64,000 nt of DNA from Martelella lutilitoris. GTDB taxonomy: Bacteria > Pseudomonadota > Alphaproteobacteria > Rhizobiales > Rhizobiaceae. Below are positions 36,919 through 55,622 of this stretch, in pieces; within the stretch, counting starts at the first letter, position 1; every line of letters begins with the position of its first letter. The stretch is from positions 767,501 through 831,500 of the forward strand of contig NZ_CP066786.1 of the NCBI RefSeq assembly GCF_016598595.1, in the 5' to 3' direction. The notes under the pieces were generated by a model. It was not told the DNA's origin, did not search any database, and saw only the letters and a program-made list of their open reading frames with translations. The position numbers were made by a program, and so were the translations under genes.

Positions 36919-38235
36919 GTGAGAGTAAGTGTGTTCGGCATCGGCTATACGGGAACCGTATCCGCCGCCTGCCTGGCCGAACAGGGCCATGAGGTGATTG
37001 CCGTCGATATCGATCCGGCCAAGGTCGAGGCGATCAACGAGGGCAAGAGCCCGATCGTCGAGGAAGGGCTCGCCGAACTCGTCGCCTCCAACCAGAAGGC
37101 CGGCCGGCTTTCGGCAACGACGGATATCGCCGCGGCCGTCGCCTCCAGCGACGTTTCGATCGTCTGCGTCGGCACCCCGAGCGAGCCGAACGGCGCTATC
37201 GGCCTTTCCCAGGTCAAGGCCCTCTGCACTGCGATCGGTCAGGCGATCGCTGAAAAGCCTGAGTTCCACAGCATCGTCATGCGTTCCACGCTGGTGCCGG
37301 GCACGATGGAAACCGTCTGCGTGCCGGAGCTTGAGCGTGCGTCCGGTCTTGTCGCCGGCAAGACCTTCGGCGTCGGCTATTTTCCCGAATTCCTCAGGGA
37401 AGGCTCGGCGATCAAGGATTATTTCGAGCCCTGCCTCGTCGTCTACGGTTCGATGGACGAGAAGACGCAGACCATGCTCGCCGGCTTCAATGCCTCCTTC
37501 GCGGTGGAGCATCACGCCGTCGACATGAAGACGGCCGAGATGATCAAATATACCAGCAACAGCTGGCGCGCGGCCAAGATCACCTTCGCCAACGAGATCG
37601 GCAATATCGCCAAGAGCGTCGGCGTTGACGGCCAGAAGGTGATGAAGATCCTCTGCTCCGATGACAAGATTTCGATGTCGCCCTATTTCCTGCGGCCGGG
37701 CTTCGCCTTCGGCGGGTCCTGTCTGCCCAAGGATGTGCGTGCCCTCAGGTTTCTGGCGGATGAAAAGGGCGTCGGCGCACCGCTCCTCGACGGCATCATG
37801 GCGGCAAACGAAAACCAGGTGGCCCGCGCCGAGGCTCTGGTCAGGAAGTTTGACGGAAAGACAGTGGGCATGGTCGGGGTCAGCTTCAAGCCGGCGACCG
37901 ACGACCTCAGGGAGAGCCCGCTTGCCGCCCTTGCCAGAAGGCTGATCGACGCCGGATACGGCATCAGGATCTATGACCCCTTTGTGAAATCGGCATTTGA
38001 TGACAGAATGGCCGGCGCCGGCCGAGGCAATGACAAGATCGAAGACCTCTCGGAAAAGCTCGTCGGGGATATGTCAGACCTGATAGCGCTGTCAGATATC
38101 ATCGTCGTCGGTCATCGCTATGAAGAGGCGGTCGGACCGCTTTCCGCCATCCTGGGGCAGAAGCCGATGGTGGATCTGACGCGCGTCGAGCCGGGCAAGG
38201 TCTCGGGCCCGGCCTATGAAGGAATCTGCTGGTAG
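36919..38235 (+). CDS. algD: GDP-mannose 6-dehydrogenase (AlgD)
   Basis: A 438-residue NAD-dependent dehydrogenase making GDP-mannuronate, the alginate precursor. It has the N-terminal Rossmann motif FGIGYTG, central VRSTLVPGT-like and EFLREGSAIKDY blocks, and the catalytic Cys in GFAFGGSCLPKDVRAL. A C-terminal domain begins VGMVGVSFKPATDDLRESPL, and the sequence ends EGICW exactly as in Pseudomonas AlgD, which separates it from UDP-glucose dehydrogenases. GTG at 36919 follows AAGGGGGT; GTG 36916 is equally close. It is the first gene of the alginate-type operon; the catalytic residues look intact. Confidence 0.92.
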   Translation: MRVSVFGIGYTGTVSAACLAEQGHEVIAVDIDPAKVEAINEGKSPIVEEGLAELVASNQKAGRLSATTDIAAAVASSDVSIVCVGTPSEPNGAIGLSQVKALCTAIGQAIAEKPEFHSIVMRSTLVPGTMETVCVPELERASGLVAGKTFGVGYFPEFLREGSAIKDYFEPCLVVYGSMDEKTQTMLAGFNASFAVEHHAVDMKTAEMIKYTSNSWRAAKITFANEIGNIAKSVGVDGQKVMKILCSDDKISMSPYFLRPGFAFGGSCLPKDVRALRFLADEKGVGAPLLDGIMAANENQVARAEALVRKFDGKTVGMVGVSFKPATDDLRESPLAALARRLIDAGYGIRIYDPFVKSAFDDRMAGAGRGNDKIEDLSEKLVGDMSDLIALSDIIVVGHRYEEAVGPLSAILGQKPMVDLTRVEPGKVSGPAYEGICW

Positions 38236-38243
38236 GAAAGACT

Positions 38244-39710
38244 GTGTATCATCTTCTGTACCTGCTTGTGTGTTTGAATATCGGGCTGTTCGCGGCGCCT
38301 GAAGTCGTGGGCCAGTCAACGGGGCTGGCGCTCACCATCGGCACGCTCGGCATCTGGCGCTATTCCTGGGCGATCATCAACTTCATCAGGGCGAAGATTT
38401 ATCTCCATCTTGTCTTTCCGCGCCGGCGCAAGGCCGCGGAGAAGCGCTACCGGGAGCAGAAATGGCGCGCGCACGCGTTTTTCCTGGTCACCACCTACAA
38501 GATCGACCCGTCGATCACGGGGCCGGTCTACCGCTCGATCTTCGACGCGGCAGCGCGTTCGGAAGGGGGCGCGACAATCGTCTCCTCTGTCGTCGATGCC
38601 AGCGACGTCCGGCTGATCAAGGCGATCTTCGCCTTGTCTGAGGCGAGCAGGTCCGGCCTCGTCAGCCTGAAGTTCGACCGGATCCCCGGCACAGGCAAGC
38701 GGGATGCGCTTGCCACATCGATGCGCACCATCGCGCGGCTCAATCCCGGCTGGCAGGACGTCATCTTCCTCGTGGACGGCGACACCCGCGTTCCGCTGGA
38801 CGTGGTGGCGCAGGCGGCTCCCTTCTTCACCGATCCGATCATGGGCGCGGTGACGACGGACGAAGTTTCCGAGGCCTCCGGCGGCAGACTGTTCAAGGAC
38901 TGGTTCGCGCTGCGTTTCTCCCAGCGGCAGATGATGATGTCCTCCATGGGCCTGAGCGAGCGCGTGCTGACGCTGACCGGGCGCATGTCCGCCTTTCGCG
39001 GCGACCTTGCCAGCGACCCGACCTTCATCGAAAGCGTCCAGCATGACTTCATCGACCACTGGCGCTTCGGGCGCATCGATTTTCTGACCGGCGACGATAA
39101 GTCGACCTGGTACTGGCTTTTGCAGCGCGGCTACAAGATGGGCTATCTGCCGGACGTCAAGACGGTCTCCGTCGAAACCCAGCCGCGCGACGGCTTCATC
39201 GATTCCGCCATCGTGCTGATGCGGCGCTGGTTCGGCAATACGCTGCGCACCAGCAACCGCGCGCTCGCGCTGCCGGCAAGCCGGATCGGCTATTTCACCT
39301 GGTGGTCGATCCTCGACCAGCGCATGTCGATGTGGACGTCGCTTGCCGGACCCTGCGGCATGCTGATCGCCACTTTGGTATACAATCCCTTCGTTTTGCT
39401 GTTCTATCTTTCCTGGGTGATGCTGTCGCGCTACGTGACATGCGCGTTGATCTCGACGTTCCGGGCGAGCCGCTTTCCCATCACCTATCCGTTTCTGCTG
39501 TATTTCGGCCAGCTTGTGGGCGCCATGGTCAAGACCTATGTGCTTTTCCGCCTTGACCGGCAGAAATGGACCCGCCAGACCGCCGCCACCAAGACCGATA
39601 CCAAGAGAGGTATTCTGGCGTCCGATCGATTTTCTTTTTATATGCATGCCCTTGCTGTAGGATGGCTGGTGCTGGGCATGGTTTGGCTCGTTGATATTTC
39701 GGGCGCTTAG
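38244..39710 (+). CDS. alg8: Alginate synthase glycosyltransferase (Alg8, GT2)
   Basis: A 488-residue processive inner-membrane GT2 polymerase that would join mannuronate units from GDP-mannuronate. It begins with two hydrophobic helices (IGTLGIWRYSWAIINF matches Alg8). It has the catalytic aspartates in LVDGDTRV and the GDDKS block, RVLTLTGRMSAFR, and MRRWFGNTLR corresponding to the Q/RxxRW site, then C-terminal helices (FDQR-like LDQRMSMWTSL, KTYVLFRLDRQKWTRQ). All expected catalytic motifs are present. It starts 8 bases after algD. Confidence 0.92.
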   Translation: MYHLLYLLVCLNIGLFAAPEVVGQSTGLALTIGTLGIWRYSWAIINFIRAKIYLHLVFPRRRKAAEKRYREQKWRAHAFFLVTTYKIDPSITGPVYRSIFDAAARSEGGATIVSSVVDASDVRLIKAIFALSEASRSGLVSLKFDRIPGTGKRDALATSMRTIARLNPGWQDVIFLVDGDTRVPLDVVAQAAPFFTDPIMGAVTTDEVSEASGGRLFKDWFALRFSQRQMMMSSMGLSERVLTLTGRMSAFRGDLASDPTFIESVQHDFIDHWRFGRIDFLTGDDKSTWYWLLQRGYKMGYLPDVKTVSVETQPRDGFIDSAIVLMRRWFGNTLRTSNRALALPASRIGYFTWWSILDQRMSMWTSLAGPCGMLIATLVYNPFVLLFYLSWVMLSRYVTCALISTFRASRFPITYPFLLYFGQLVGAMVKTYVLFRLDRQKWTRQTAATKTDTKRGILASDRFSFYMHALAVGWLVLGMVWLVDISGA

Positions 39711-39720
39711 GAGCTTGGCA

Positions 39721-40917
39721 ATGCTTGAGGAAAACCGCACCGACGACGCCGGCAACGAGCAGGAAATCCGTCTGCCGCCCGACCTGCCCGACAACGGCCA
39801 TGACAGCGACCACCCCTCGATCTGGATGCCGTTTTCGGTCTTCATCGACGGTCGGGAACTGGAGGGCGTCGGCATATCGCTTGTTGCCGCCTATGTCGGC
39901 GGCTGGGGCGGCGCCGATCTTGCCGGCCGCGATCTGATTGCCCGTTTCAGCTTCCAGTTCGACGGCTATTCGATCGTATTGCCGATCGAGGTCCGCGCCG
40001 GTCTCGAGGATCGCCGCAGCGGCGCCTACAAGCTCGTGTTTCTTGATCCGACCGGCCCGCATCTGGCGCATCTGCGCTATCTCATGAATGCCTATCTCGC
40101 GGGCGATCTCGTCCAGATCAACGAAGTGCTGCGCATCCCGCCCGAATACAAGAAGAAGCCGAAGCAACTGGAGCCGCCGAGACCGCCGACTGTCCGGGAG
40201 CGGTTTCGCAAGGTCTTCGGCCTGCTCTGGGTCGGCGCGCTCACCGTGGCCCTCATTGCGCTGACTGTCTGGACGATCCACTACCATATCTTCGTCCACA
40301 AGGTGCCCGGGCTTGCGACCGTGACGCCTGCCGGCCTGCCGCTGACGGCGCCGGAGGCGGGGCAGATCGCCTATGTCGACGGCCAGGCGCCGGAGGGCGG
40401 GGTGGTGTTCTCGCTGCAATCGGCGCGCGGCGGCGTGCTGAATTTCTCCAACCCCTGCAATTGCGACATCATGCTGACGTCGAACGGAACCGTCGGAGCG
40501 ACCGTGCTTCCGGGCACCCCGATCGCCTATGTGAAAACCGGCGACGCCGGCCCGACGATCAAGGTGGTGATGCCGGACGATCTGTCGAAAATGCTGCTCT
40601 TCGGTGCCGAGGCGGAGGCCAGGTTGCCGGACGGACAGACGCTGCCCTTGACCGTTGTCGACGTGAAGGCGGAAGAGGGCGGCTCCGGCTCGCGCAGCAT
40701 CGTCAGCCTTTCGGCGCCGAGCGGCGCGCTGGGTGCCAGCGACATCGGCAAGACGGTGGCGCTCACCGTTACCAGCAAACCCTACGCCAATCTGCTGACA
40801 AGGATTCGCGCCATGCTGCCTTTCTCGGGTCGGGCGCAATCGCTCTCGCAACGGGCCAATGACTGGCCGCTGATCGGCAATGCCTTTGCCGGAACGGTCG
40901 AGGAGCACGGGCAATGA
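39721..40917 (+). CDS. alg44: Alginate copolymerase Alg44 with degenerate PilZ domain
   Basis: A 398-residue single-pass protein: N-terminal cytoplasmic PilZ-like domain (residues about 30-125), a helix (about 165-190), and a periplasmic membrane-fusion-like beta domain with the CNCDIMLTSNGTVG segment matching Alg44's CDCVVA block. In Pseudomonas, Alg44 binds c-di-GMP through an RxxxR motif (Arg17/Arg21) and a DxSxxG motif. Here the equivalent stretch reads SIWMPFSVFIDG and contains neither. Control by c-di-GMP is therefore doubtful. AGGAG precedes the ATG, 10 bases after alg8. Confidence 0.88.
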   Translation: MLEENRTDDAGNEQEIRLPPDLPDNGHDSDHPSIWMPFSVFIDGRELEGVGISLVAAYVGGWGGADLAGRDLIARFSFQFDGYSIVLPIEVRAGLEDRRSGAYKLVFLDPTGPHLAHLRYLMNAYLAGDLVQINEVLRIPPEYKKKPKQLEPPRPPTVRERFRKVFGLLWVGALTVALIALTVWTIHYHIFVHKVPGLATVTPAGLPLTAPEAGQIAYVDGQAPEGGVVFSLQSARGGVLNFSNPCNCDIMLTSNGTVGATVLPGTPIAYVKTGDAGPTIKVVMPDDLSKMLLFGAEAEARLPDGQTLPLTVVDVKAEEGGSGSRSIVSLSAPSGALGASDIGKTVALTVTSKPYANLLTRIRAMLPFSGRAQSLSQRANDWPLIGNAFAGTVEEHGQ

Positions 40918-42332
40918 GTGCGATCTATCCTCTCGTCATGTGCGGCGGCGTTGGCATGCGCCTCTGGCCGCTTTCGCGTCTCAACACGCCGAAGCAGTTT
41001 CACAGGATCGGCCCCGACAGTTCGCTCACCTTCTTCCAGGCGACGGTGGAGCGCCATGGCGGGGAAGGCTTTCATGCTCCCTATGTCAGCGTTGGCATGC
41101 GCTATGAGGATGTGGTGCGCGACCAGCTTGCGGCGATCGGCCGCTCGGCCGAGCTGATGATCGAGCCGACCGCCAGGCGGACGGGGCCCGCCGTGCTGGC
41201 GAGCGCCATCGCGATCAATGAGCGCGATCCCGGCGCGCTGATGGCCGTGCTGCCGTCCGATCACCTGATCGAGGGGGATTTCAGCGGCGTGCTGTTGAAG
41301 ATGCGCCCGCCCGCCGCCGACGGCCGGATCGTGCTTTTCGGCATCGAGCCGGCCTACCCGGAGGTCGGTTACGGCTATATCGTCGACAGCGGGCCAAGCG
41401 CGCTTTATCCTGGCGCGCGGGATGTCTCGCACTTCATCGAGAAGCCGGCGCGGCCGATCGCCGAAAGACTGATTGCCGAGGGGCATGCCTACTGGGCTTC
41501 GGGCGTCAGCCTGTTTCGCGTCGATGTGCTGATGGCGGAATATCAGCGGCTTGATCCGGACACATTCGCGGCGGTCAGCGAGGCGGTCCGCAATGCCGGC
41601 CGCAAGCCCGGCCGCACCGAGCTTTGCGAGGCACATTTCCGCCGCGCCCATGGTGAAGCGACGGAAAGCGTGGTGTTCGAACACAGCGACAAGGTGCTTC
41701 TGGCGCCGGCCGCCATTTCCTGGAGCGACGTCGGAAGCTGGCGATCGCTCTACGAGATCGGCGACAAGGACGGGGACGGCAATGTGCTTTCCGGCCATGT
41801 CGTGCCTGTCGATACCAGCAATTCCTATGTGCGGGCGTCCTCCGGACGTCTGGTCGCGACCGTCGGCGTCGACAATCTCGCCATCGTCGATACCGAGGAT
41901 GCTCTGCTCGTGACCTCGCTGGATCGCACTCAGGACGTCCGTATGGTGCTTGAAGCGCTGAAGTCGCGTGGGACCGCGGCCGGTGAAGTGGCTGAGCCGC
42001 TTGAACGGCCGGTTCGCTCCGGCGACGGCTACGGCGTCTACGCGCTCGACATTCGCCCCGGCGAAGTCGTTGCGCTCGCCCCGCTCAAGGACGAACATCG
42101 CGTGCTGACGGTCTGCGCCGGGGCCGTTGAACTGGAAGGCGGCAGCGAGATCGGCCGGAAATGGCCGGGCGAGACCGTCAGGGTCGCTGCGGGCAGCGCC
42201 TGCAGGCTGCGGAATGGCGGCGGGGAGCCGGCCCGGCTGGTCGAGGTGCGCCACGCGGTCACGCCGGTTGTGCCGCTTGGCGTTCCGGTTCAGGCGCGCC
42301 CGCGCATGGTCTCGGGCGGAGAGGCAAAATGA
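40914..42332 (+). CDS. algA: Mannose-1-phosphate guanylyltransferase (AlgA type) with degenerate isomerase domain
   Basis: A 472-residue protein. The N-terminal GDP-mannose pyrophosphorylase half is well kept: GGVGMRLWPLSRLNTPKQF (residues about 11-29), LPSDHLI, EVGYGYI, FIEKP and SDVGSWRSL. The C-terminal cupin half, phosphomannose isomerase in bifunctional AlgA, lacks the metal-binding QxHxHRxEHW motif. The aligned stretch (residues about 387-397) reads LAPLKDEHRVL. It therefore probably makes GDP-mannose but not mannose-6-phosphate. It overlaps alg44 by four bases (ATGA). Confidence 0.88.
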   Translation: MSAIYPLVMCGGVGMRLWPLSRLNTPKQFHRIGPDSSLTFFQATVERHGGEGFHAPYVSVGMRYEDVVRDQLAAIGRSAELMIEPTARRTGPAVLASAIAINERDPGALMAVLPSDHLIEGDFSGVLLKMRPPAADGRIVLFGIEPAYPEVGYGYIVDSGPSALYPGARDVSHFIEKPARPIAERLIAEGHAYWASGVSLFRVDVLMAEYQRLDPDTFAAVSEAVRNAGRKPGRTELCEAHFRRAHGEATESVVFEHSDKVLLAPAAISWSDVGSWRSLYEIGDKDGDGNVLSGHVVPVDTSNSYVRASSGRLVATVGVDNLAIVDTEDALLVTSLDRTQDVRMVLEALKSRGTAAGEVAEPLERPVRSGDGYGVYALDIRPGEVVALAPLKDEHRVLTVCAGAVELEGGSEIGRKWPGETVRVAAGSACRLRNGGGEPARLVEVRHAVTPVVPLGVPVQARPRMVSGGEAK

Positions 42333-43921
42333 GCGTGGTCGGCGGCCTTTGGAAGCGCAGTGCCCTGGCGCTGCTGCTGGTGCCGGCGCTTGCCGGCGCC
42401 GCAAGGGCCTTCGACCGCGAGGGTATCGAGGTAATCAACCGCAACTACACCGCAATGATGGAGGCGCTGGAGGCCGATCCGGCGGACGGCGTCGACGCGC
42501 CGCTTGATGCCGCCTATCGGTTGCTGAACCATGGAGAGGACCGTCCCAAAGCGAACGAAGACGGACCGGCAGGCTCGGCCGCAGCGCCTGCGGGCAGCAC
42601 AAGACAGGGCGTGGTCGGCAAGGCGCTTGTCGCGCCGATCCTGCAGCAGGTCGCGCTCGAGGTCGGCAGCATGGGGCACCGCGAACTGATGGAAGCGGCC
42701 GCGCCGTCGGGCGGCGAGGTGCTGGTGGTCAAGGCCGGGTCGCTGACGCTCTCTGCCTTGCCTGATGCGCTCGAAAGCAGCGGCTGGCAGGATTTCCTCA
42801 CTGGCGCTGACGGAAATTATAGCCTCAACATTCCGCTGGTGATCATGGAAGACGGAACGCTCGTGATCGGACCCGGCGATAGGCTGGAGATGGCTACCGA
42901 CCGGGGGGCGTTTATCCTCAATCTTGGAACCTTGACGGTGACCGACGCGACCGTCACGGGCTCCGATGCGCGTCCTCGGCTGTCTGATTTCCACCCCTTC
43001 ATCCTGACCGCGCGCGGCGGCCGCGCAGCGATCACGGGAAGCCGGTTTTCAAATCTCGGTTTCGACACGCGGCCGCTGATGAGCGGCCTTGCTTTCGGTT
43101 CCAGCCCGTTTGCGTCGCTCAAGAGCCAGGGCACGGTCAGCGACACGGTTTTCGACAATGTCCGCTCGGTGGAGGTCACCGGCATCGAGGATTTCGTCTT
43201 TTCCCGCAACCGCATCCAGAAGGCGCGCGGGATCGGTCTCAGGCTGGATAAGCTGAAGGGCGGCGCGATCCGGGACAATGTCATTATCAAGAGCGGCATG
43301 CATGGCATGCTGGCGCTCGGAAGCACCGGCCTGGAGGTGGCGGGCAATATCTCCGCGGAAAACGGGGGGCGCGGTTTTTTTGGTCGCGACGGCGTCGGCC
43401 ATCTTGTCGTCGCGGATAACGTCTTCGTTGCCAATGAGGATGAGGGCGTCGCGGTCGCCGGCGGATCCTGCGTCGATATCCGCGGCAACGCCGTGCTGCG
43501 CAACCGCCGGGACGGGATAAACGTTTCCCAAAGCCTCGGCGTCCGCCTTGCCGGCAATCTTCTGGTGCGCAATCAGGGGGCGGGGATTTCCATCAATGAC
43601 AGCATCTCGCCCGCAGACAGCGTCGAGGTCACGCAGAACCGGTTCGTCGCCAACAATGTCGGCATCACGGCCGAGCGCTTCTCCGCGATCCGGCTGAGCG
43701 GCAACAATCTCTCCGACCAACTGCCGGTCCTTTTCGGCGGCGCGCTTCAGTACGATACGCCGCGTTACCTTGGCTGGGTCCGCGCGCATGAGGATGATCC
43801 GGAGGCCGTCTTCGAGATCTCGTCGGCGCGGGGCGGATCGCCGCTGATCTTCCAGGGCGACAGCAACGGCATGTTCCGCCTGTCCGACATGACCGGCTGC
43901 CATTTCGAGGAGCTGAAGTGA
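42329..43921 (+). CDS. AlgG-like right-handed beta-helix protein lacking the epimerase motif
   Basis: A 530-residue secreted protein with a signal peptide (about residues 1-28) and a C-terminal right-handed parallel beta-helix. It aligns with Pseudomonas AlgG (mannuronan C5-epimerase) through IPLVIMEDGTLVIG, RGAFILNLGTLTV and FHPFILTARGG. At the catalytic DPHDRS position (bases about 43229-43252) it reads GLRLDK. Epimerase activity is thus unlikely; it may be a structural part of the periplasmic secretion complex, as AlgG also is. It overlaps algA by four bases. Confidence 0.75.
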   Translation: MSVVGGLWKRSALALLLVPALAGAARAFDREGIEVINRNYTAMMEALEADPADGVDAPLDAAYRLLNHGEDRPKANEDGPAGSAAAPAGSTRQGVVGKALVAPILQQVALEVGSMGHRELMEAAAPSGGEVLVVKAGSLTLSALPDALESSGWQDFLTGADGNYSLNIPLVIMEDGTLVIGPGDRLEMATDRGAFILNLGTLTVTDATVTGSDARPRLSDFHPFILTARGGRAAITGSRFSNLGFDTRPLMSGLAFGSSPFASLKSQGTVSDTVFDNVRSVEVTGIEDFVFSRNRIQKARGIGLRLDKLKGGAIRDNVIIKSGMHGMLALGSTGLEVAGNISAENGGRGFFGRDGVGHLVVADNVFVANEDEGVAVAGGSCVDIRGNAVLRNRRDGINVSQSLGVRLAGNLLVRNQGAGISINDSISPADSVEVTQNRFVANNVGITAERFSAIRLSGNNLSDQLPVLFGGALQYDTPRYLGWVRAHEDDPEAVFEISSARGGSPLIFQGDSNGMFRLSDMTGCHFEELK

Positions 43922-43922
43922 G

Positions 43923-44714
43923 ATGGCGAGGCGTCGCACAAGCATCGGCCATTCGGCTGCCGTTCTGTTTTTCACGTTCTCCGTATGCGCAGCCTTTGTC
44001 CCGCCGGCGCAGGCGGGAATCTCAATACCGGCATTCGCCTCCGCGCGCGTGCTGGAGGGCCAACGACACGTCACGACCGTTGACACGCGCTATGACCGGC
44101 AGCCGGGCCTGAAAGCGATCCGCGACAAGCTCGTCAGTGACCAGCCGGTGACCACGGTGGAGCTTCGGGTGCTGGCCAATGCCGGAGACGGACTTGCCGC
44201 CTATGCGCTGGCGGAGCGCTACATCGACAGCGGCCGGCCGGAACTGAGGGCGGATGCGGCGTTCTATTACGCGGTGGCCGTTGCCAGGGGACGCAGCTAT
44301 GCGATCAATCCGCTCGTCGACATCCTGAAGGACGGACAGACCGTCATTCCGCAGGCCCGCCTCGACAATATCGAAAGGGCGCTGCTGCTGCAGGCAAGCC
44401 AGGGCGACAGGGACGCGGTTGATGTCCTGTCGAAATTCTATCTCCAGGGACAGCCTTTCGGCTATCGTCCCGATATGGCCGAAGAACTTATGAAGGCTGG
44501 CGCTTCAGGTTCCAATGACAGCGTTCTCGCCCTGCGGACGGCGCTCTGGCTTGCTTCAAAGGAGCCCAGCGATCCGGCGGAGATCATGGAAATCCGGCGA
44601 TTTCTCGCGATCGCGCTTGAAAGCCCGGATCTGAGCGTGCGGACGGCTGCCGAAAATCTGATGCGTTCCTATCCGGACCCGGGGACGGCCATAGTGGAGG
44701 ACGACGATGAATAA
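43923..44714 (+). CDS. Sel1-like repeat periplasmic protein
   Basis: A 263-residue exported protein with a signal peptide (cleavage near AQA-GI, about residue 31) and helical Sel1/TPR-like repeats (ELRVLANAGDGLAAYALAERYIDSG; LLLQASQGDRDAVDVLSKFYLQG). Such solenoids, like AlgK, scaffold exopolysaccharide export complexes. It starts one base after the AlgG-like stop and overlaps the AlgX-like gene by 8 bases. Confidence 0.75.
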   Translation: MARRRTSIGHSAAVLFFTFSVCAAFVPPAQAGISIPAFASARVLEGQRHVTTVDTRYDRQPGLKAIRDKLVSDQPVTTVELRVLANAGDGLAAYALAERYIDSGRPELRADAAFYYAVAVARGRSYAINPLVDILKDGQTVIPQARLDNIERALLLQASQGDRDAVDVLSKFYLQGQPFGYRPDMAEELMKAGASGSNDSVLALRTALWLASKEPSDPAEIMEIRRFLAIALESPDLSVRTAAENLMRSYPDPGTAIVEDDDE

Positions 44715-45951
44715 GGCCGGTTCGACGATGGCAGGTCTGATCGCGGCCATTGCGGTGGCAGGCGGCGCAATGGCGCAGGAGGAGACAAGCCAGGCCGCGC
44801 CGAAGCCGCCGTTCCAGATGACCGAGGCTCAGACTGCGCCCGCCGCGCAAGCCGCGCAGCAACCGCCCGCGCAGCAGCCGGCAGCGCAGGAGCCGGTCGC
44901 CGACGAACAGATCGCACAGGACGAGCAAGCGCCATCCACGCAACAGCAGCCGGCAGAGGAGACATCCTTGTCTGAGGCCGCATCGGGTTCGCTTTATGGC
45001 TGCACCGGTCTCGAAAGCCTTGACCCGGCCGTGCTCGAAGGCCCGAACGGGACCTTCTTCACGGTGATCGACGATATCGCCATGCAGCAGGTCGCCGATC
45101 CCGCTCTCGTCGAGAGCATCAGCGACCTGGCCAAGCGTCTGCGCCAACGCGGCACGGTGCTTGTCTATGTCCCCATCCCCAGCAAGAGCCAGGCCATGCC
45201 CGATGATGTGCCGGATGCTGCCTGGGTTTATGGATACAACGAGACGGTCAATGAGGAGATCTATGTGCAGGCCTTGTCGCGGCTGAAGGCGGCGAATGTC
45301 GTCGCGGTTGATCTGCAGTCGGCGCTCAGAAAGGCCGATCCGGCGACGCCGCCGTTTCAGAAGGTCGATCCCCTGTGGACGCCGGAGGGCGCGCGGCTCG
45401 CGGCGGAGGCGATGGCAGCGGAGATCAAGGCGCTCCCGGCCTACCACAAGGCGAACCTGATGACGTTCAAGACCACCGAACAGGACGAGATCTCGCGCCC
45501 CTCCGACCTGCGCACGGCGCTGCAGACCCATTGCAGCGCGCCGCTGCCGGCGGTCCGCGAGAAACGGTTCGAGACGACGGGCCAGGAGGCCTATGCCGCA
45601 GACAGACCGTTCAACGTGCTGGGCTCCGACGCGCCCGCGCCTGCGGTTCTCGTCGGGTCGCGCTTTTCCGCCGGCGGCCAGAGTCATTTCGACGGCTTCC
45701 TGAAGCAGGCGACCGGCCTTGACGTGGCCAATCGCGCAAGCGCGGATGCCTATCCGTTCCAGTCGATCGACGCCTATCTGAAGTCGCAGGAATTCCAGGG
45801 CCATCCACCGCTGTTCCTGATCTGGGAAGTGCCGGCCGGCGCCAACCTGGCCCGTTTCGGCCCGCTGCCCTGGCTGACGCTCTCCGCCAACGCGGCCGGT
45901 GACTGCTCGGCCGAACACGCGACCTGCGGCAAAAGCGGAGCGGACGAATGA
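44707..45951 (+). CDS. AlgX/AlgJ-like SGNH-fold protein lacking the acetyltransferase triad
   Basis: A 414-residue exported protein with a signal peptide (cleavage near AMA-QE). A Gln/Ala/Pro-rich linker (about residues 28-85) precedes an SGNH-like domain aligned with alginate O-acetyltransferase AlgX. The blocks correspond (KVDPLWTPEGARLAAE against KGDHHWTPHGA; FLIWEV against ILIWEF). The catalytic His is Leu223, and the catalytic Ser of GTSNS is Arg319 in GSRFS; only Asp221 remains. The C-terminal carbohydrate-binding module of AlgX is absent. It is probably a non-catalytic member of the polymer machinery. Confidence 0.75.
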   Translation: MNKAGSTMAGLIAAIAVAGGAMAQEETSQAAPKPPFQMTEAQTAPAAQAAQQPPAQQPAAQEPVADEQIAQDEQAPSTQQQPAEETSLSEAASGSLYGCTGLESLDPAVLEGPNGTFFTVIDDIAMQQVADPALVESISDLAKRLRQRGTVLVYVPIPSKSQAMPDDVPDAAWVYGYNETVNEEIYVQALSRLKAANVVAVDLQSALRKADPATPPFQKVDPLWTPEGARLAAEAMAAEIKALPAYHKANLMTFKTTEQDEISRPSDLRTALQTHCSAPLPAVREKRFETTGQEAYAADRPFNVLGSDAPAPAVLVGSRFSAGGQSHFDGFLKQATGLDVANRASADAYPFQSIDAYLKSQEFQGHPPLFLIWEVPAGANLARFGPLPWLTLSANAAGDCSAEHATCGKSGADE

Positions 45952-48716
45952 CGGAGCATGCCAACACCGCCGGCAGCAGGCTTTCCCGCATCGCCATCGC
46001 CAGCCTCCTGAGCGCCGTGATCTTCGCTGCAGGCCTCTCGACAGCCTATGCCGAAAAGCCGGCGATCGATTTTAGGCCGCCGGATATCCAGCCGGCCAAG
46101 GTCTGCGCGCAGCGCAAATCCGACGACATGCTGAAACTGCAATGGTCCTCCTGGGACGGGGAGCGCCTGCCCCCGGGCATCGAATATCGCGATCTCGACG
46201 CTGAACTGGCGCGGCTGCGCAATATCGACGCGAACAAGTATTTCGACACCATCAAGAAGGCCTATAACCTCCGGGCCAAGGTTGATCCCTACTACAACCG
46301 CACGGCTTATCTGCTCGACATGATCTCCCTCTATGTGAAGGCCGAGCGTTTCGCCGACCTGCGCGAGACCGGTTTCGTGGCCGAACTGGAAGCGACTGGA
46401 CCGGCTGCCTCGGCGGCGACTGTCAACTTTCTCGGCGATCTCTATCTCGAAGGCCGCGCCGTGCCGCAAAACGAGCAGCGCGGCCTGCAGCGCAAGCTCC
46501 AGGCCGCCTATAACGGCAATCCGAACGCCGTTCTCGACCTTGCCGAGCGGACGGCCATGGGGCAGAGCGTGCCGGGTTGGGACATGCCGCCCAAGCTTGC
46601 CTTCACCCTCGGCTTTTCCTCGCTCCTCGGCAATCTCGACAGCGGCATATGCGAGCGCGTGCGCCGTATCGCCCGGGCTTTCGAAACGGGCGAGGTCATT
46701 GCCCAGGATCATGCGCTGGCGGAGGAGTGGTATCGTTTCGCCGCCGAGCTCGGCGATCCGGAGGCGGCCTGGAAGGCCGCGCGCTATCAGCTTTCCGGCG
46801 ACGGGCTCGCGCAGGACGATACGCTTTTGATGCGATACCTGACCCAGGCCTACGAGGCCGGCATCGTTCCGGCGCGCCTTGCCATGGGATCGCTTTACGA
46901 ACAGGGACGGCTGCTGACGCAGGATCCGGTTGCGGCGATGCGCATCTATGACGCGCTTGCCGCCGACGGCAGTGAGGACGGGCTGATCGCCGCGATCAGG
47001 CTGCAGGAAAGGCAGGGCATTGTCACGGAAGAGGACAAGCAGAAATATCGCGAGCGGTTGGTGAAGCTGGCGCGCTTTCCCGATGCCCCCGGCTGGCCCT
47101 TCTCCCGGCTCGGGACGATGCTGCAGGACGAATCCGGGCTGTTTGCCCAGGAAAGCGCGCGCGAGAACCTGTTTCAGGAGGCGGCAAAACGAGACGACCC
47201 GGAGGGTAAGCTGCAGCTCGGCCGCCTTTACCTTCAACGCGGCGATGAGGCCGACCGGCAGAAGGCGATCGCCCTTTTCGAGGATCTGGTGGCCGAGGAC
47301 GGCAAGTCGCTCGCCATCGATGATCTGAGAAACGCGCTTCTGTGCCGTGCGCCGGACGGTCCCGACACGGACCGGTGGGCGCCCTGGCAGGCGCTCGACC
47401 CCGACAATCTTCCCGAACTGCCCGACCATATCGAAGCCGAGGACCTGGCAAAACCCGAGATCGCGGACGCTCTGGCGCGCCTGCAGGCGGCGGCGCTCGG
47501 CGGCAGCGGCCAGGCGGCGGGCCGGCTGACGACGATCCTCTCCGAACTCAAGCCCGCGCAGTTCCAGAATATCGTTGCCCACTGGCGCGCGATGATGACC
47601 GTCAGCGCGGGCGGCGAGGCTTCCGTGCTTCAGGCGGCCTATACGGCCGCACCGGACGATGCCAGCCGCACGGCTATCTTCGATGCGCTGAAGGCCCTTG
47701 CCGATGGCGGCGAACCCTACGCCAAGACCGCGCTTGCGGAAATCTATCTGGCCGATGTCCCGGCCGACGAAGTTATTGATGACGAGACGCTCGAGAAGGC
47801 GACCGCCCTGATCGAGGCGGTCGGCGGCAGCGTCAAGGGCTCAAGCCTCTGGCGGCTGGACGATGCCTATCGTGCGGCGGGCAAGAAGCAGTTCCAGCCT
47901 TCCGACGCCATGCTGGCCGAGATCGCCAGGGTCGGCGACTTCGAGGCGATGCTGTTTGCCGCCGCGCGTTCGGCGGATGAGGAAACGGCGAATTTCTACT
48001 ATGACCGCGCGCTTTCCATCATGCCATGCGACCTCAATGCGCTGGCGCGCAAGGCGCGCTACGCGCTCGATGCCGGAAGGCCGGACGACGCGCTCAATGC
48101 GCTCGACGCGGCGCTGGCGCTGTCGCCGGAACAGGCATGGCAGCAGGTCAAGCTTGCCGACATCTATCTGGCGCTCGGGTCGATCGATGACCGAAAAGAA
48201 GCCTACGATCTTTATGTTGCCGCCTTCCGCCAGGGGTACGAACCGGCGGTCTGGCGTCTGCTCGACTGGTTCTCGAGCGGCGACGGGCCGTTTTACGACG
48301 AGGCGCTGCATGAGGAAGTGCTGCTTCACCAGCTGAGAAATGCCGGGCCGGCAGAGCTTTACAGCGTGGTGGCAAAGCTGAAGAGCGCACCGAAGAGCGT
48401 GTTCGACAATGTGCTCGCCAAATTCGATCTCAAGGACGCCTATCGGGGCGCGGCAATCGCCGGAGAGCCGGTCGCCATGCGCGAGCTCTCCAAGCTCCTT
48501 ATGCAGGACGGCTCGGCGCCGGACGAGGCCGCAAAGTGGCTCACCGGCGCGGCGACCGCCGGCGACCCCGAGGCGATGCTGATGCTGGCGCAATCCTATG
48601 CCTTCGGCCTCGGCGTGGAGCCCTCGGCGGAAAAGGCGCGGCAATGGCTGCAGGCCGCCGCAAGCGCGGGAGACGAGACGGCGGTGACCTTGCTCTCGAT
48701 CATGCGCGTACAGTAG
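45948..48716 (+). CDS. Large Sel1/TPR-repeat exported protein (AlgK-like scaffold)
   Basis: A 922-residue exported protein with a signal peptide (cleavage near AYA-EK, about residue 35) and no lipobox. Nearly the whole length is Sel1/TPR-type helical repeats (EEWYRFAAELGDPEAAWKAARYQLSGDG; KWLTGAATAGDPEAMLMLAQSYAFG; KARQWLQAAASAGDETA). It is about twice the size of Pseudomonas AlgK, the lipoprotein that links AlgE, AlgX and Alg44. Its place between the AlgX-like and AlgL-like genes suggests the same scaffolding role. It overlaps its upstream neighbour by four bases. Confidence 0.75.
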   Translation: MTEHANTAGSRLSRIAIASLLSAVIFAAGLSTAYAEKPAIDFRPPDIQPAKVCAQRKSDDMLKLQWSSWDGERLPPGIEYRDLDAELARLRNIDANKYFDTIKKAYNLRAKVDPYYNRTAYLLDMISLYVKAERFADLRETGFVAELEATGPAASAATVNFLGDLYLEGRAVPQNEQRGLQRKLQAAYNGNPNAVLDLAERTAMGQSVPGWDMPPKLAFTLGFSSLLGNLDSGICERVRRIARAFETGEVIAQDHALAEEWYRFAAELGDPEAAWKAARYQLSGDGLAQDDTLLMRYLTQAYEAGIVPARLAMGSLYEQGRLLTQDPVAAMRIYDALAADGSEDGLIAAIRLQERQGIVTEEDKQKYRERLVKLARFPDAPGWPFSRLGTMLQDESGLFAQESARENLFQEAAKRDDPEGKLQLGRLYLQRGDEADRQKAIALFEDLVAEDGKSLAIDDLRNALLCRAPDGPDTDRWAPWQALDPDNLPELPDHIEAEDLAKPEIADALARLQAAALGGSGQAAGRLTTILSELKPAQFQNIVAHWRAMMTVSAGGEASVLQAAYTAAPDDASRTAIFDALKALADGGEPYAKTALAEIYLADVPADEVIDDETLEKATALIEAVGGSVKGSSLWRLDDAYRAAGKKQFQPSDAMLAEIARVGDFEAMLFAAARSADEETANFYYDRALSIMPCDLNALARKARYALDAGRPDDALNALDAALALSPEQAWQQVKLADIYLALGSIDDRKEAYDLYVAAFRQGYEPAVWRLLDWFSSGDGPFYDEALHEEVLLHQLRNAGPAELYSVVAKLKSAPKSVFDNVLAKFDLKDAYRGAAIAGEPVAMRELSKLLMQDGSAPDEAAKWLTGAATAGDPEAMLMLAQSYAFGLGVEPSAEKARQWLQAAASAGDETAVTLLSIMRVQ

Positions 48717-48756
48717 ATATCATTGACCAATGGCACCGACCGAAGGGGAGCTCGAT

Positions 48757-49923
48757 TTGGCCGAATTCAGCAGCGAGCGAGAGCAGTCCGGCTTTGGACG
48801 CCTCTCGAACCGGATATTTTCCAGCCCTCGCAGGTTTCGTCGCAGCCTCTTTCTCGCAGGCGCCGCTATGATCCTTGCCGCCGCCGCCGAGCCGCCCGCG
48901 CCCGATGCCGACAGCGAGGCCTGTCCCGTATTTCCCGCCCCGACCGTGACGCTCGATTATGGCAGCCGTTACGAGGAAAGCAGCAGCGACCGTTCCGAGC
49001 TCGATTCGGCGGGCAACGAGGAAGTGGATCTGGCGCTCAAGGATGCCGATGAATTCATCCGGCAGCTGGACGGGCTCGCCAATGACGCGCTGGTCAATCC
49101 GGTGCTGGCCAAGTCAAGGGCGGATTGCGTCATCTCGGGCATCGCCGTCTGGGCCAATGCCGGCGCCTTCAGCGCGCTTGAGACGGAAAACGCCAGAATG
49201 ACCTATGCCTCGCGGGTGGGCGGCATTGCCAGCGCCTACCGGCAGGTGCGCGACAAGACCGAGGACCTTTCCGAGGAGAAGACGGCGATCGAGGCCTGGT
49301 TGCGGAAGAATGCCGATTTCCTGACCGAATACTGGAGCAATGACGCGCCGCCCAAGGCGAAGATGGGCAACCTCAGGCTCTGGGCCGCCTTTGCCGTGAC
49401 GGAAGCGGCGCTGATCCTGCGGGAGCCCGACTATATCAACTGGGCGCTCGACAGCCAGCGCACCATTCTCGCGACCGTGGATGAAAACGGCAGCATGCCC
49501 TACGAGATGCGGCGCGGCGCCTATGCGCTCCACTACCAGCTTCACGCGCTGGCCCCGCTGACGGCTTCGGCCGCGCTGATCTGCCATAGCGACTACGCCT
49601 ATTCCGAAGACGAGCAGGCGGCGATCGAAAGGGCCGTCGCCTTCGCGCTTGAGGGAATTGCCGATCCGGGCGCGGTCGCGCTGGTTGCCGGCAAGCCGCA
49701 GACGGTCAGGCAGGGGCTGAACAACCAGGAGCCATTCTCGATCGCCTTCCTTGAGGCCTATCTCAGTCTGGAAAGCGATGCGGCCCTTGATCGCAAGCTC
49801 GCGCCGCTCAGGCCCTTGTCCAATTCCAAACTTGGCGGTGACCTGACCTTGCTCTATCGCAACAACCCGGCCATGCAGCCGGGCTGCTTTGCGCCGAAAA
49901 CAGCAAGGAGCGGTGAGCAATAG
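48757..49923 (+). CDS. Alginate lyase (AlgL, PL5)-like protein lacking the catalytic His
   Basis: A protein of about 388 residues with an N-terminal hydrophobic segment (FLAGAAMILAAAA). It aligns with AlgL over most of its length (ACPVFPAPTVTLDYGSRYE; ISGIAVWANAGAFSA; MRRGAYALHYQLHALAPL). In AlgL the catalytic NNH precedes SYW; here the site (bases 49366-49383) is GNLRLW, so the essential His is Leu, while the Arg and Tyr of RxxxxALxY remain. Lyase activity is therefore doubtful. TTG 48757 is preferred because AAGGGGAG sits 6 bases upstream; ATG 48730 is an alternative without a ribosome site. Confidence 0.75.
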   Translation: MAEFSSEREQSGFGRLSNRIFSSPRRFRRSLFLAGAAMILAAAAEPPAPDADSEACPVFPAPTVTLDYGSRYEESSSDRSELDSAGNEEVDLALKDADEFIRQLDGLANDALVNPVLAKSRADCVISGIAVWANAGAFSALETENARMTYASRVGGIASAYRQVRDKTEDLSEEKTAIEAWLRKNADFLTEYWSNDAPPKAKMGNLRLWAAFAVTEAALILREPDYINWALDSQRTILATVDENGSMPYEMRRGAYALHYQLHALAPLTASAALICHSDYAYSEDEQAAIERAVAFALEGIADPGAVALVAGKPQTVRQGLNNQEPFSIAFLEAYLSLESDAALDRKLAPLRPLSNSKLGGDLTLLYRNNPAMQPGCFAPKTARSGEQ

Positions 49924-49940: not shown

Positions 49941-50531
49941 TCAGCGGCAGCGTTGCAACTGCGCCTCGTAGATCTGCGTCATCTTCTGGGCGCGGGCGGC
50001 GGCGCTTTTTGCCACCGGCCGGCTTTTCCACACGCCGCGGCTGTAGCCGGCATGGCCGGAGTGATAGGCGAGGTAGAGATTGTACGGGTCGTTGAGGGCG
50101 ATGCCATTCCGGAGATGGCTCTGGTGGTGGTACCAAGCGATGAAGTAGATCGCATCGCCGAAATCCGTTCGGGAGACACCGCGCTGGCCGGTGCGGGCCT
50201 TGTATTCCGCCCAGGTGCCGTCAAGCGCCTGAGAGTAGCCGAGTGCGCTCGAGGCGCGGGGACCTGGAATGAAGCCGAGGATTTTCTTGCGCGGCGGACG
50301 GGCATGACTGTCGAAGGAGGACTCGACATAGATCGTCGCCATCAGCACGGAAACGGGAACGCCGTAGTCGCGCGAAGCCCGTTCCGCATCGCGACGCCAG
50401 TTCTCGAATATTCCGTTCTTCTGCGCGAATATCGCGCAGCTGTTGCCAACATTGCTGACGGTCGTCGAGCAACCCGCCAGAGCGGCCAGGCAGAGCACTG
50501 CTAAGACAATCTTCAAGCGCGAAATAGACAT
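49941..50531 (-). CDS. Lytic transglycosylase lipoprotein (SLT domain)
   Basis: A 196-residue lipoprotein with lipobox LAGC (Cys21). Its SLT-type domain has the catalytic Glu in ATIYVESSFDSHARP and the following ASSALGYSQALDGTWAEY and YHSGHAGYSRG blocks. It would cleave peptidoglycan glycan strands, perhaps to make room for envelope complexes. It is convergent with the AlgL-like gene, with only 17 bases between the stops. Confidence 0.9.
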   Translation of the reverse strand: MSISRLKIVLAVLCLAALAGCSTTVSNVGNSCAIFAQKNGIFENWRRDAERASRDYGVPVSVLMATIYVESSFDSHARPPRKKILGFIPGPRASSALGYSQALDGTWAEYKARTGQRGVSRTDFGDAIYFIAWYHHQSHLRNGIALNDPYNLYLAYHSGHAGYSRGVWKSRPVAKSAAARAQKMTQIYEAQLQRCR

Positions 50532-50781
50532 GGGGCATGATCTACGCGCCGGACCTTAAGGAAGGGTTTTTAAAAATGGTTAACGGTGAGAATGTTTCTC
50601 GCCGCCGCTCCCCGCAAGACCCGCAGGGCAGGCATTTCCGGGAATGCGAAGTTCCTTGAACTTAGTCTTTGACAGACGGGCGGCATGACGATAAGGGGAC
50701 CGCCTGAAGACGAAGCGCAAAGATCTGCGCATTTCGATCGGCGAAAGCCAGCCTTCAACCGCAACATGAGAGGGTTTGAAC

Positions 50782-51171
50782 GTGGCGAAAGCGGAACTTG
50801 GCACGAAAAGAACATGCCCGGACACGGGCAAGAAATTCTACGACCTCAACAAGGATCCGGTGGTTTCGCCCTATTCGGGCAATTCCTGGCCACTGAGCTA
50901 TTTTGAGGATGAGGCTTCCATCGCCGTTGTCGAAAGCGAGGAAGAGGAAAACGAGGTTGCGGAAGTCGACGCGGAAAACGGCGACGGCGAAATGGGCACG
51001 ATCGCGGCATCCGACGATGACAGCCCTTCCGACAACATTCCCAATGTGGACGGCGACGACGATGATGACGTGGATGTCGATGACGACGACACATTCCTCG
51101 AAGCTGATGATGACGATGATGACGATGTCTCCGACATCATCGGCGTTTCGGATGATGACGACGACAACTGA
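50782..51171 (+). CDS. FYDLN-acid domain protein (TIGR02300 family)
   Basis: A 129-residue protein beginning AKAELGTKRTCPDTGKKFYDLN, the signature of the alphaproteobacterial FYDLN-acid family, with PVVSPYSG next. The remaining two thirds are extremely acidic, with runs of Asp, and presumably disordered. GTG 50782 has GAGAGGG 7 bases upstream. The two-Cys N-terminus (only one Cys kept here) resembles a small metal-binding knuckle in other members. Function unknown; often encoded next to a tRNA-Ala gene, as here. Confidence 0.88.
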   Translation: MAKAELGTKRTCPDTGKKFYDLNKDPVVSPYSGNSWPLSYFEDEASIAVVESEEEENEVAEVDAENGDGEMGTIAASDDDSPSDNIPNVDGDDDDDVDVDDDDTFLEADDDDDDDVSDIIGVSDDDDDN

Positions 51172-51211
51172 CCCTCTCTGTCGATAGCGTTGTCGCGACC
51201 GATATCTAAAG

Positions 51212-51240
51212 CCGCGGGTTCGAACGAACCGGCGGTTTTT
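51212..51240 (+). terminator. Terminator downstream of the FYDLN gene
   Basis: CCGCGGGTTCG and CGAACCGGCGG form a GC-rich stem with one mismatch, followed by TTTTT, 41 bases after the stop. The rest of the 303-base gap before the tRNA shows no gene. Confidence 0.75.
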
Positions 51241-51474
51241 CCTTTTATGGGCGTATCTTGCCCGCCCGCAACAGGCGATGGCCCGTAGCTTGATATATCT
51301 TCGGTTTTCGTCAGGCATGCGGTTCGACGCGGCTCCGCGTGTCTGCGCGGGAGACGGTTCAAGTTTTTTTCAGACAATGTTTTTTAAGGCTTGCATCCGT
51401 CGAAAATCGACAGTAATAAGCCGCCACCCGACGCGAACAACGTCGCTTCGCACCGCTCAGGCGGTCTGGAGAAT

Positions 51475-51550
51475 GGGGCTATAGCTCAGCTGGGAGAGCG
51501 CCTGCATGGCATGCAGGAGGTCAGCGGTTCGATCCCGCTTAGCTCCACCA
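51475..51550 (+). tRNA. tRNA-Ala (anticodon GGC)
   Basis: A 76-base cloverleaf with encoded CCA. Acceptor stem GGGGCTA / TAGCTCC, D-arm GCTC...GAGC, anticodon stem CCTGC / GCAGG around loop ATGGCAT (anticodon GGC), and T-arm AGCGG-TTCGATC-CCGCT. The sequence is nearly identical to E. coli tRNA-Ala(GGC). The IS and integrase remnants start just downstream. Confidence 0.97.
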
Positions 51551-51637
51551 ATTTCCTGTTCTTGTAAAATGTCACATAGATTGACCTTTTTGTGCAGGCT
51601 TTGACCTTTTCGGTCACTTGGCTTGAGCTTTTGGGCG

Positions 51638-52155
51638 TTAAGAGCATCGGTGTTGATCAAGCCTTTGTGACCATTTTCGATCATCGCGGATGAGCGCGTT
51701 TGCCAGTTCGATAAACTCTCGTATGATCGCTGTGAGGGCAACTTTGGCGGGTTTTCCGGCGCTTTTCAGCGCCTCGTATTTTTCCTGCATCTGCTTGTTG
51801 AGGCGCATGGCGACGAGGGCAGGCATATAGAGGGCGTCGCGCAGGAACCGCCCTTTCTGGCCTTGCCGTCATCCCCGCGCAGGCGTGTTTCAATCTCGGT
51901 CTGGATTGCCGCGAGCTGGCGCTCGATCTGGGCGAGGCGCGCCTTTGAGTGCCGCTCCGTCAGTGAAAGCGCTTGCGTCTTGATGCGGTTGAGCAGCCGA
52001 GTCCGGTCCTTGACGAGAGCGGTGCGCGCGATCTGCAACTCCTTGAGTTCGTGAATGGTCTCGTTCGCAGGCCGGTCTGGCTGAAGGGCAAAGGCCTGCC
52101 CCATCTGCGCCAGCATAATGGTTATGATGTGACCGCGATCGAGGTTCTGCCGCAT
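51638..52155 (-). pseudogene. IS110-family transposase remnant
   Basis: Two reading frames on the minus strand match pieces of an IS110 transposase. One has ELKELQIARTALVKDRTRLLNRIKTQ with a following RQLAAIQTEIE helix. The other is the C-terminal end, MPALVAMRLNKQ...AGKPAKVALTAIIREFIELANALIRDDRKW. The catalytic C-terminal Ser region between them is deleted and the frames are shifted. The N-terminal RuvC-like part is missing here. It is a decayed element just downstream of the tRNA. Confidence 0.8.
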
Positions 52156-52175
52156 GCGCTGAGAAAGGAGACATC

Positions 52176-52580
52176 ATGAGCCGGAGTGCAGCCCGCAATA
52201 CCGGAAAGGCCAACAGTATCGTCTGTCTTTCGCCCTGCGTTTGCCTGACGCCTCGCGGTCCGAAAATGGTGCCGGTGCCCTATATGATCGTCTCGAAACT
52301 GGAATGGAGCACGAAGACGATCTCCAGTACCGGCTTCGGCGGCGATCAGGCCTTCACCATGGAAAGCCGCACGCAGAAAGTGACTGGCAACGAGCCGGGC
52401 ACCGGCGGCGGGGTGTCGTCCGGCGTCAACGTCGGCTGGTGCCGGCCGCAATCAAACAAGTCCAGTTTTCTGGTCGAGGGCCATCAGGTGCTGCAGGACA
52501 ATTGCATCTACGAGATGAACTGCGCCGGCCCCGACGGGCCGTCGAACACGCTCGGCAAGCTGAATTATGACGATGCGTGA
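52176..52580 (+). CDS. PAAR-like (DUF4150) type VI secretion protein, orphan
   Basis: A 134-residue protein of the DUF4150/PAAR-like group: CVCLTPRGPKMVPVPYMIVSKL, the GDQAFTMESRTQKVTGNEPGTGGGVSSG block and a C-terminal FLVEGHQVLQD strand. PAAR proteins cap the VgrG spike of type VI secretion systems and carry effectors. No VgrG, toxin or immunity gene is recognisable nearby, and there is no C-terminal toxin extension. GAAAGGAG precedes the ATG. The gene is intact although its surroundings are decayed. Confidence 0.82.
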   Translation: MSRSAARNTGKANSIVCLSPCVCLTPRGPKMVPVPYMIVSKLEWSTKTISSTGFGGDQAFTMESRTQKVTGNEPGTGGGVSSGVNVGWCRPQSNKSSFLVEGHQVLQDNCIYEMNCAGPDGPSNTLGKLNYDDA

Positions 52581-54836: not shown

Positions 54837-54845
54837 GGTCGCGCG

Positions 54846-55103: not shown

Positions 55104-55205
55104 CGGTGGTCTTTCCATCAGGTTGAGCTTCAACAACCCGACCTTACCGGAAAAACACTGGTGACCACCCGTCAGCTACACCACGCGGCGGGACACGATC
55201 CAGGG
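55062..55205 (-). mobile_element. IS256-family 5'-end remnant
   Basis: About 140 bases on the minus strand that look like the end of an IS256-type element: a leader with GATGGAAAGACCACCG ahead of the transposase start codons for MTNDMMNLRSLVE. The rest of the transposase is missing. Assignment rests on memory of the family N-terminus. Confidence 0.45.
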
Positions 55206-55587: not shown

Positions 55588-55622
55588 CCACTGACTGCCG
55601 CCTTCCACGCGGCGGTCAGTGG
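55588..55622. repeat. Long hairpin in island DNA
   Basis: CCACTGAC-TGCCGC and GCGGCG-GTCAGTGG pair over 14 bases with one G-T pair and a 7-base loop. No T-run follows. It lies upstream of the second IS110 fragment and may be an element-end structure. The rest of 55206-55768 shows no gene. Confidence 0.5.

Follow-up and report, generated by a model that had tools for sequence, protein, structure and literature searches.

A 64,000-nucleotide stretch of the Martelella lutilitoris genome (contig NZ_CP066786.1, positions 767,501 to 831,500; here termed the window) carries nine genes that resemble those of alginate operons. They lie in the same direction on the + strand at positions 36919 to 49923, in the order algD-alg8-alg44-algA-algG-sel1-algX-algK-algL, and the open-frame list contains no internal stop in any of them, as the original prediction, made from the letters of the window, had stated (Table 1). 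The GDP-mannose dehydrogenase and the Alg8/Alg44 synthase pair are both present, the Alg44 match being weak. The genes had also been described as mostly overlapping by 1 to 8 bases. Overlaps of 4 to 8 bases do occur at four junctions (alg44/algA, algA/algG, sel1/algX, and algX/algK), but three junctions are gapped (8 bases for algD/alg8, 1 for algG/sel1, and 13 for algK/algL) and that of alg8 and alg44 is a 20-base overlap if the TTG start of alg44 is used. The starts of algD (36919) and algG (42326) were chosen in the analysis, in agreement with the original prediction, where the mechanical frame list gives 36886 and 42161. The genome (G000) is 4.79 Mb in size, and its Alg8 is 98% and 96% identical to those of two further Martelella loci (L012 and L013).

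Profiles and searches against solved structures support the gene names, weakly for Alg44 and AlgK. AlgD aligns along its entire length with the GDP-mannose dehydrogenase 1mfz (436 bits, compared with 227 bits for the best UDP-glucose dehydrogenase). AlgX belongs to PF16822 (E 6e-45), with ∼40 residues beyond the SGNH match, and AlgL belongs to PF05426 (Pfam, E 1e-26), while AlgG (NF038177, E 7e-14) and AlgA (TIGR01479, E 1e-91) both pass under the curated cut-offs of NCBI. Neither Alg44 nor the small Sel1 protein has a Pfam match; the former weakly matches the Alg44 PilZ structure 4rt1 (E 0.002), and the latter is modeled as helical repeats (mean predicted local distance difference test score [pLDDT], 85), with a best Foldseek match of E 0.002. 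The AlgK-like protein is modeled as an all-helical superhelix (mean pLDDT, 87), and its top Foldseek matches are Sel1-repeat proteins.

Table 1. Genes and altered active-site positions of the Martelella lutilitoris operon (positions are those of the window)
Feature	Position	Strand	Basis
algD, GDP-mannose 6-dehydrogenase, Cys of FGGSCLPKD kept	36919..38235	+	frame, profile, motif, structure-sequence match
alg8, GT2 polymerase, DGDT, TGDDKS, and RRWFGN kept	38244..39710	+	frame, Pfam, motifs
alg44, PilZ-like domain and co-polymerase region, precise start uncertain	39691..40917	+	frame, weak 4rt1 match
Alg44 site of lost cyclic di-GMP motif RxxxR, reads DSDHPSIWM	39802..39828	+	alignment
algA, mannose-1-phosphate guanylyltransferase, degenerate isomerase domain	40914..42332	+	Pfam, NCBI profile, motif
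algG-like beta-helix protein without DPHD, start chosen in analysis	42326..43921	+	profiles, alignments
AlgG residues opposite DPHD, read RL-D, gap at His	43241..43249	+	alignment
small Sel1-repeat-like all-helical protein, 263 amino acids	43923..44714	+	model, Foldseek; no Pfam match
algX-like SGNH protein, match limited to SGNH domain	44707..45951	+	Pfam, structure alignment
AlgX catalytic His to Leu, residue 223	45373..45375	+	alignment
AlgX catalytic Ser to Arg, residue 319	45661..45663	+	alignment
large AlgK-like Sel1/TPR protein, 922 amino acids, all-helical model without beta-barrel	45948..48716	+	Pfam, model, Foldseek
algL-like PL5 protein, Arg262 and Tyr269 kept	48730..49923	+	Pfam, NCBI profile, alignments
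AlgL His to Leu, residue 215, clade-wide	49372..49374	+	alignment

The polymerizing core of this operon is intact, and the tailoring proteins are not. Solved structures and an operon of Pseudomonas avellanae (L058, a canonical control with algI present and motifs intact) served as the motif reference, and alignment to them confirmed the motif losses named in the original prediction. DGDT, TGDDKS, and RRWFGN of Alg8 and the FGGSCLPKD cysteine motif of AlgD are present. DxH and GTS of AlgX read DPL and GSR, with the Asp kept and the His and Ser gone; NNH of AlgL reads GNL; DPHD of AlgG reads RL-D, no residue standing opposite the His; and RxxxR of Alg44 and the isomerase motif of AlgA are missing.

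Most of these losses are shared with relatives. A scan of named records with Alg8 gave 51 loci, among them the alphaproteobacterial operons of Martelella, Roseibium, and Rhodobacteraceae (here the clade), in which the same substitutions recur, as the original prediction had proposed to check. Counted over clade operons both with and without algI, the gap at the DPHD His of AlgG and the absence of the RxxxR pair of Alg44 are found in 40/40 rows including the window, the AlgA motif H.HR.EH is found in 0/36, and the AlgL His is Leu in 34/34. At two further AlgG positions, the His of HGI is kept in 14/40 rows and the following Arg in 4/40. Outside the clade, Microvirga and Rhizobium operons mostly retain D-x-H-D in AlgG, and Microvirga has both RxxxR and the isomerase motif, which Rhizobium-type AlgA rows lack. 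The AlgG-like proteins of these operons (L028:14040-17828 and L045:15020-18778) are ∼1250 amino acids long and match Pfam families only toward their C-terminal part, and AlgX has no match in either locus. Because the pattern recurs in relatives, the motif losses exceed chance, and because the Alg44, AlgA, AlgG, and AlgL changes are common to clade operons with and without algI, these four of the five are not specific to Martelella. The original prediction saw one coherent pattern of change; this could not be upheld, as the four also occur in holders of algI, algJ, and algF. The changes do not record one coherent decay event, four being clade-wide and the fifth, in AlgX, being linked to algI.

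Unlike the clade-wide changes, loss of the AlgX active site is specific to operons without algI (here termed compact). In addition to the genus, we sampled 295 genomes from the family (Rhodobacteraceae; NCBI names split it) to which G102, the source of the Yoonia maritima locus L019, belongs. All 23 matching loci, from 22 genomes, were examined: 11 are compact, 8 have algI, algJ, algF, and a readable AlgX, 3 end at a contig edge before AlgX, and 1 (L105) is of another type. In every row with algI, algJ, and algF in the operon (18/18), the AlgX His and Ser are both kept; both are kept in 0/21 and both lost in 21/21 rows without algI (10 from the genus, including the window, and 11 from Rhodobacteraceae), 19 of which keep the Asp. 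L014 and L015, which duplicate L078 and L076, were left out of these rows, L058 was kept separate, and L018, L087, L089, L103, and L105 had no readable AlgX. Presence of algI was scored in the operon region. AlgI, AlgJ, and AlgF are absent from the window operon, and a genome-wide search for MBOAT proteins gave no match in the nine Martelella-group genomes searched, G000 included. One Rhodobacteraceae genome, G294, holds both kinds of operon (L096 and L097), and the AlgX of its compact operon is altered despite algI in the other, so that an acetylation set live elsewhere in the cell did not preserve it.

The replacement is selective. Among the 74 AlgX columns conserved in operons with algI (at least 90% of rows; cut-offs were chosen for this analysis), 5 are lost in both groups without algI, and the catalytic His and Ser are among them; by simple arithmetic, the chance that two named columns both fall among 5 of 74 is 0.004. 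Both groups retain three of the four conserved cysteines, along with many columns of Gly, Trp, and Pro. In the genus, the His/Ser pair has been replaced by Leu/Arg or Tyr/Gln; in Rhodobacteraceae, His has become Arg (Gln in one row) and Ser has become Glu or Asp. That salt bridges seal the AlgX pocket would be a guess.

A tree of Alg8, Alg44, AlgG, and AlgL (39 rows, AlgX excluded; quick search, unrooted) divides the rows without algI into two clades. The Martelella group adjoins Roseibium operons with algI, and the second, of Rhodobacteraceae, lies beside other rows with algI; starred branches of the tree force two changes of state. A single origin of the algI-less state was rejected (one-clade constraint, p-AU 4e-50; approximately unbiased [AU] test on the quick tree). 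Since these operons form two clades that the test does not allow to be joined, acetylation was probably lost twice, with AlgX turned into a scaffold each time. Loss, rather than gain, is the direction we infer because algI rows and P. avellanae share intact motifs.

AlgL was altered in another manner, and the original prediction went too far in calling it catalytically degenerate. When aligned to L058 and to the residues named in PMC8829089, all 34/34 clade rows have an unchanged residue at the positions of P. aeruginosa N201, W205, R249, and Y256, and R, L, and H at those of K66, H202, and Y259, again in 34/34; the Y256 equivalent is followed by Q in 33 rows and by H in the remaining one. The Tyr acid/base and the Arg of polysaccharide lyase family 5 (PL5) are thus present, and the intermediate-stabilizing His is not. 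The H202A variant of AlgL was inactive in vitro and gave growth like that of the wild type in cells, which R249A and Y256F did not support (PMC8829089). Because the new surrounding signature is invariant and the Arg and catalytic Tyr are kept throughout, the site seems re-tuned rather than drifted, and AlgL would be a working protein, not a dead one. In the genome search with AlgL, 4/12 matches had one stop in the matched stretch; the aligned frames are single open frames.

These residues also bear on whether the tailoring enzymes could all be active through displaced catalytic residues. The kept Arg and Tyr of AlgL and the invariant His gained at its Y259 position make this plausible for AlgL, and the Asp of most compact AlgX rows might be taken in the same sense. 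The idea is a poor one for AlgX, in which Ser has given way to Arg, Gln, Glu, or Asp and His to Leu, Tyr, Arg, or Gln, by lineage and precisely in the operons that lack algI, algJ, and algF, and for AlgG, in which the positions at DPHD vary freely. As a general explanation, we consider it improbable.

Within the genus, the operon is patchy but well maintained. AlgX was found in 10 of 101 whole genomes scanned, namely, in 10/13 of the genus group and 0/88 outside it, a distribution for which horizontal arrival in Martelella may be responsible. Alg8 likewise occurs in 10/13 genus genomes, and in the ten genomes with the operon every gene present is one open frame over most of the query. Two of them (G005 and G008; loci L079 and L082) keep alg8-44-G-sel1-X-K-L, with algD and algA missing from the operon; the nearest dehydrogenases elsewhere in these genomes are 32% and 29% identical to AlgD. 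In G012, an internal deletion has left two algD pieces (residues 2 to 127 and 346 to 382) and algL residues 174 to 388 (locus L126, G012:C1:2792000-2811000, ∼8030 to 9068), followed by DNA matching the downstream flank of the window.

A decaying relic, its residues lost through the usual drift of pseudogenes, would be in keeping with the G012 remnants beside a conserved flank, with the lack of an Alg8 match in G003 and G009, and with a Martelella-like locus in a record titled Marinicella sp. W31 (L017), where seven of the nine operon genes are broken. Several flanking genes of L017 are broken as well, however, so sequence quality is the likelier cause, and its frameshifts were rejected as evidence of decay. 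For intact copies, decay was also rejected: the open frames of the ten genus genomes, the few AlgX columns lost in both clades, the active site included, and the pairwise ratios of nonsynonymous to synonymous substitution (dN/dS; Nei-Gojobori method, NG86) all argue against it, and we hold this explanation to be very unlikely. Over seven genus pairs, dN/dS was 0.03 to 0.35 for all operon genes (0.03 to 0.12 for AlgD and Alg8, 0.14 to 0.35 for AlgG, 0.18 to 0.25 for AlgX, 0.14 to 0.27 for AlgL, and 0.07 to 0.34 for the rest), in line with the purifying selection for which the original prediction had proposed to test; the values are whole-gene and pairwise, may include some noncoding 5′ DNA, as relatives were read stop to stop, and do not show selection on any particular residue. 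Loss of orthologues from close relatives, which that prediction had named as counting against it, was seen in part (the G012 deletion and the absence of Alg8 from G003 and G009), but such losses show that the operon is dispensable, not that intact copies are dead. Between L076 and L080, algK is 73% identical while AlgD and Alg8 are 97 to 99% identical, possibly through recombination within the operon.

The degenerate AlgA isomerase domain was considered as a block in the pathway and rejected. ManC-type PF01050 proteins are present in 13/13 genus genomes, and the three copies read, one of them from G000, have an intact isomerase motif (QKHHHRAEHW); because an intact ManC lies elsewhere in the genome, the loss need cost nothing. 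Genes of the PGM/PMM family also occur in 13/13, and the type I isomerase families PF01238 and PF20511 had no match in these 13 genomes.

Taken together, these observations probably describe a working exporter of unacetylated, nonepimerized mannuronan with pseudoenzyme scaffolds. In the proposed scheme, AlgA would supply GDP-mannose, with the isomerase step left to the separate ManC, and AlgD would oxidize it; Alg8 and Alg44 would polymerize the product without direct binding of cyclic di-GMP by Alg44; and the chain would pass through a periplasmic conduit of the AlgG-like, Sel1, AlgX-like, and AlgK-like proteins. Of these, AlgG and AlgX may be noncatalytic scaffold. The AlgL-like PL5 protein, re-tuned and probably still working, would remove stray polymer, and unacetylated, nonepimerized poly-beta-mannuronate is the predicted product. 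We infer the plain mannuronan, the inactivity and scaffold role of AlgX and AlgG, and the activity of AlgL from the residues and their distribution. Of the original prediction, a retained machine making unmodified polymannuronate, the intact core under constraint survives and the product is still the simplest expectation; its list of losses has to be amended, as AlgL seems re-tuned and ManC can cover the isomerase step.

Several points weigh against this scheme. The invariant change at other AlgL active-site positions could mean another substrate. The mannuronate precursor seems not to be secured in G005 and G008, given that their operons lack algD and algA and only distant dehydrogenases occur elsewhere. 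Alg8 has no match in 3/13 genus genomes (G003, G009, and G012, the last with its deletion remnant). The coupling of algI and AlgX rests on only two independent losses of algI. Finally, the AlgE porin (PF13372) was found in 0/21 genomes (G000 and 20 relatives), and a barrel concealed in the AlgK-like protein was rejected from its all-helical model; without porin or barrel, export is left unexplained. In 28 further genomes, PF13372 gave three matches, a strong one in P. avellanae (E 3e-114) and two partial ones above the cut-off, in G390, which has a compact operon, and in G408. Nor did the flanks offer a conserved barrel gene: four frame families are shared by at least three non-Martelella loci; Pfam scans of three of them gave a polysaccharide lyase, a LuxR-type regulator, and an RTX protein, and the fourth, in the locus taken as an example, overlaps the lyase gene on its opposite strand.

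Of these flank families, one lies beside 9/11 compact Rhodobacteraceae loci (including L094:17173-18123 and L102:17326-18276), and its two members tested are Polysacc_lyase (PF14099) proteins on the opposite strand upstream of algD; when one was compared with PDB sequences, only glucuronan lyase matched, weakly (E 0.007). A second family is found beside seven acetylating loci (L090:1208-1981 and six more with algI), the members tested being LuxR-type regulators. In the window, the operon follows a dihydroxy-acid/6-phosphogluconate dehydratase-type gene and precedes a transglycosylase gene on the opposite strand. Farther downstream, at 50000 to 56000, guanine-plus-cytosine content falls to 0.55 to 0.59 around a tRNA-Ala (51475-51550), and a frame at 53808-54836 reads as recombinase-like in translation; the region is possibly an inserted element.

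The polymer might be another uronan, glucuronan-like or mixed, in which case the AlgL and AlgG changes would reflect a new substrate and not loss. The R/L/H replacements in an otherwise kept AlgL site, the G005 and G008 operons without algD and algA, and the lyase family beside compact loci are all compatible with this. We nevertheless regard it as rather unlikely, since AlgD is a full-length homologue of GDP-mannose dehydrogenase, encoded beside a GDP-mannose pyrophosphorylase in 8/10 genus operons, and the Alg8 motifs are canonical. The window operon could also, though less probably than not, be one instance of a separate alphaproteobacterial class of synthase-dependent uronan exporters, with no canonical AlgE, an Alg44 without the cyclic di-GMP motif, conduits of pseudoenzyme AlgG and AlgX, a PL5 signature of R, N-L, R, and Y-Q-x-H acting on a polymer that is not necessarily mannuronan, and an AlgX that became a pseudoenzyme convergently after each loss of the acetylation genes.

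Arguments on how far AlgX and AlgG serve as conduit parts and not as enzymes have come from engineered mutants. Secretion does not depend on the activity of AlgX, which acetylation requires, and production depends vitally on the AlgK-AlgX complex (PMC9734138); acetylation requires AlgI, AlgJ, AlgF, and AlgX (PMC10641220); and AlgG catalytic mutants retain their alginate yield, AlgG being also a scaffold part (PMC3815931). The operon fits a machine stripped of its chemistry with the conduit kept. In the course of evolution, the active sites seem to have disappeared while the proteins stayed, for AlgX apparently on two occasions, and natural systems thereby become a place to test the scaffold question. 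Such an operon would, in addition, naturally supply mannuronan free of acetyl groups and guluronate, together with an unusual PL5 protein, and it raises the question of how the outer membrane is crossed without AlgE.

In Pseudomonas and Azotobacter, the operon order is algD-8-44-K-E-G-X-L-I-J-F-A (PMC3815931). The window operon likewise unites homologues of AlgD, Alg8, Alg44, AlgA, AlgG, AlgX, AlgK, and AlgL, with intact polymerase and precursor motifs. Unlike the Pseudomonas and Azotobacter systems, it has a different gene order and an additional small Sel1 protein, lacks AlgE, AlgI, AlgJ, and AlgF, has an AlgK-like protein about twice as long, and has lost the cyclic di-GMP, isomerase, epimerase, and acetyltransferase motifs, with an altered AlgL site. 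“Atypical” alginate operons without algKE or parts of algGXLIJF, with alg44 and algX unusually divergent between clades (PMC7112194), resemble it in the loss of outer-membrane or modification genes; in the accessible text of that paper and the open-licence literature, we found no mention of AlgX site loss tied to missing algI or of the compact alphaproteobacterial type. Also close are the acetylating operons of Roseibium and Rhodobacteraceae (D-8-44-A-G-I-J-sel1-X-F-K-L), whose order is that of the window plus I, J, and F. They share its Alg44, AlgA, and AlgG losses and its AlgL signature but, unlike the window, carry algI, algJ, and algF and retain both Asp-x-His and Gly-Thr-Ser in AlgX.

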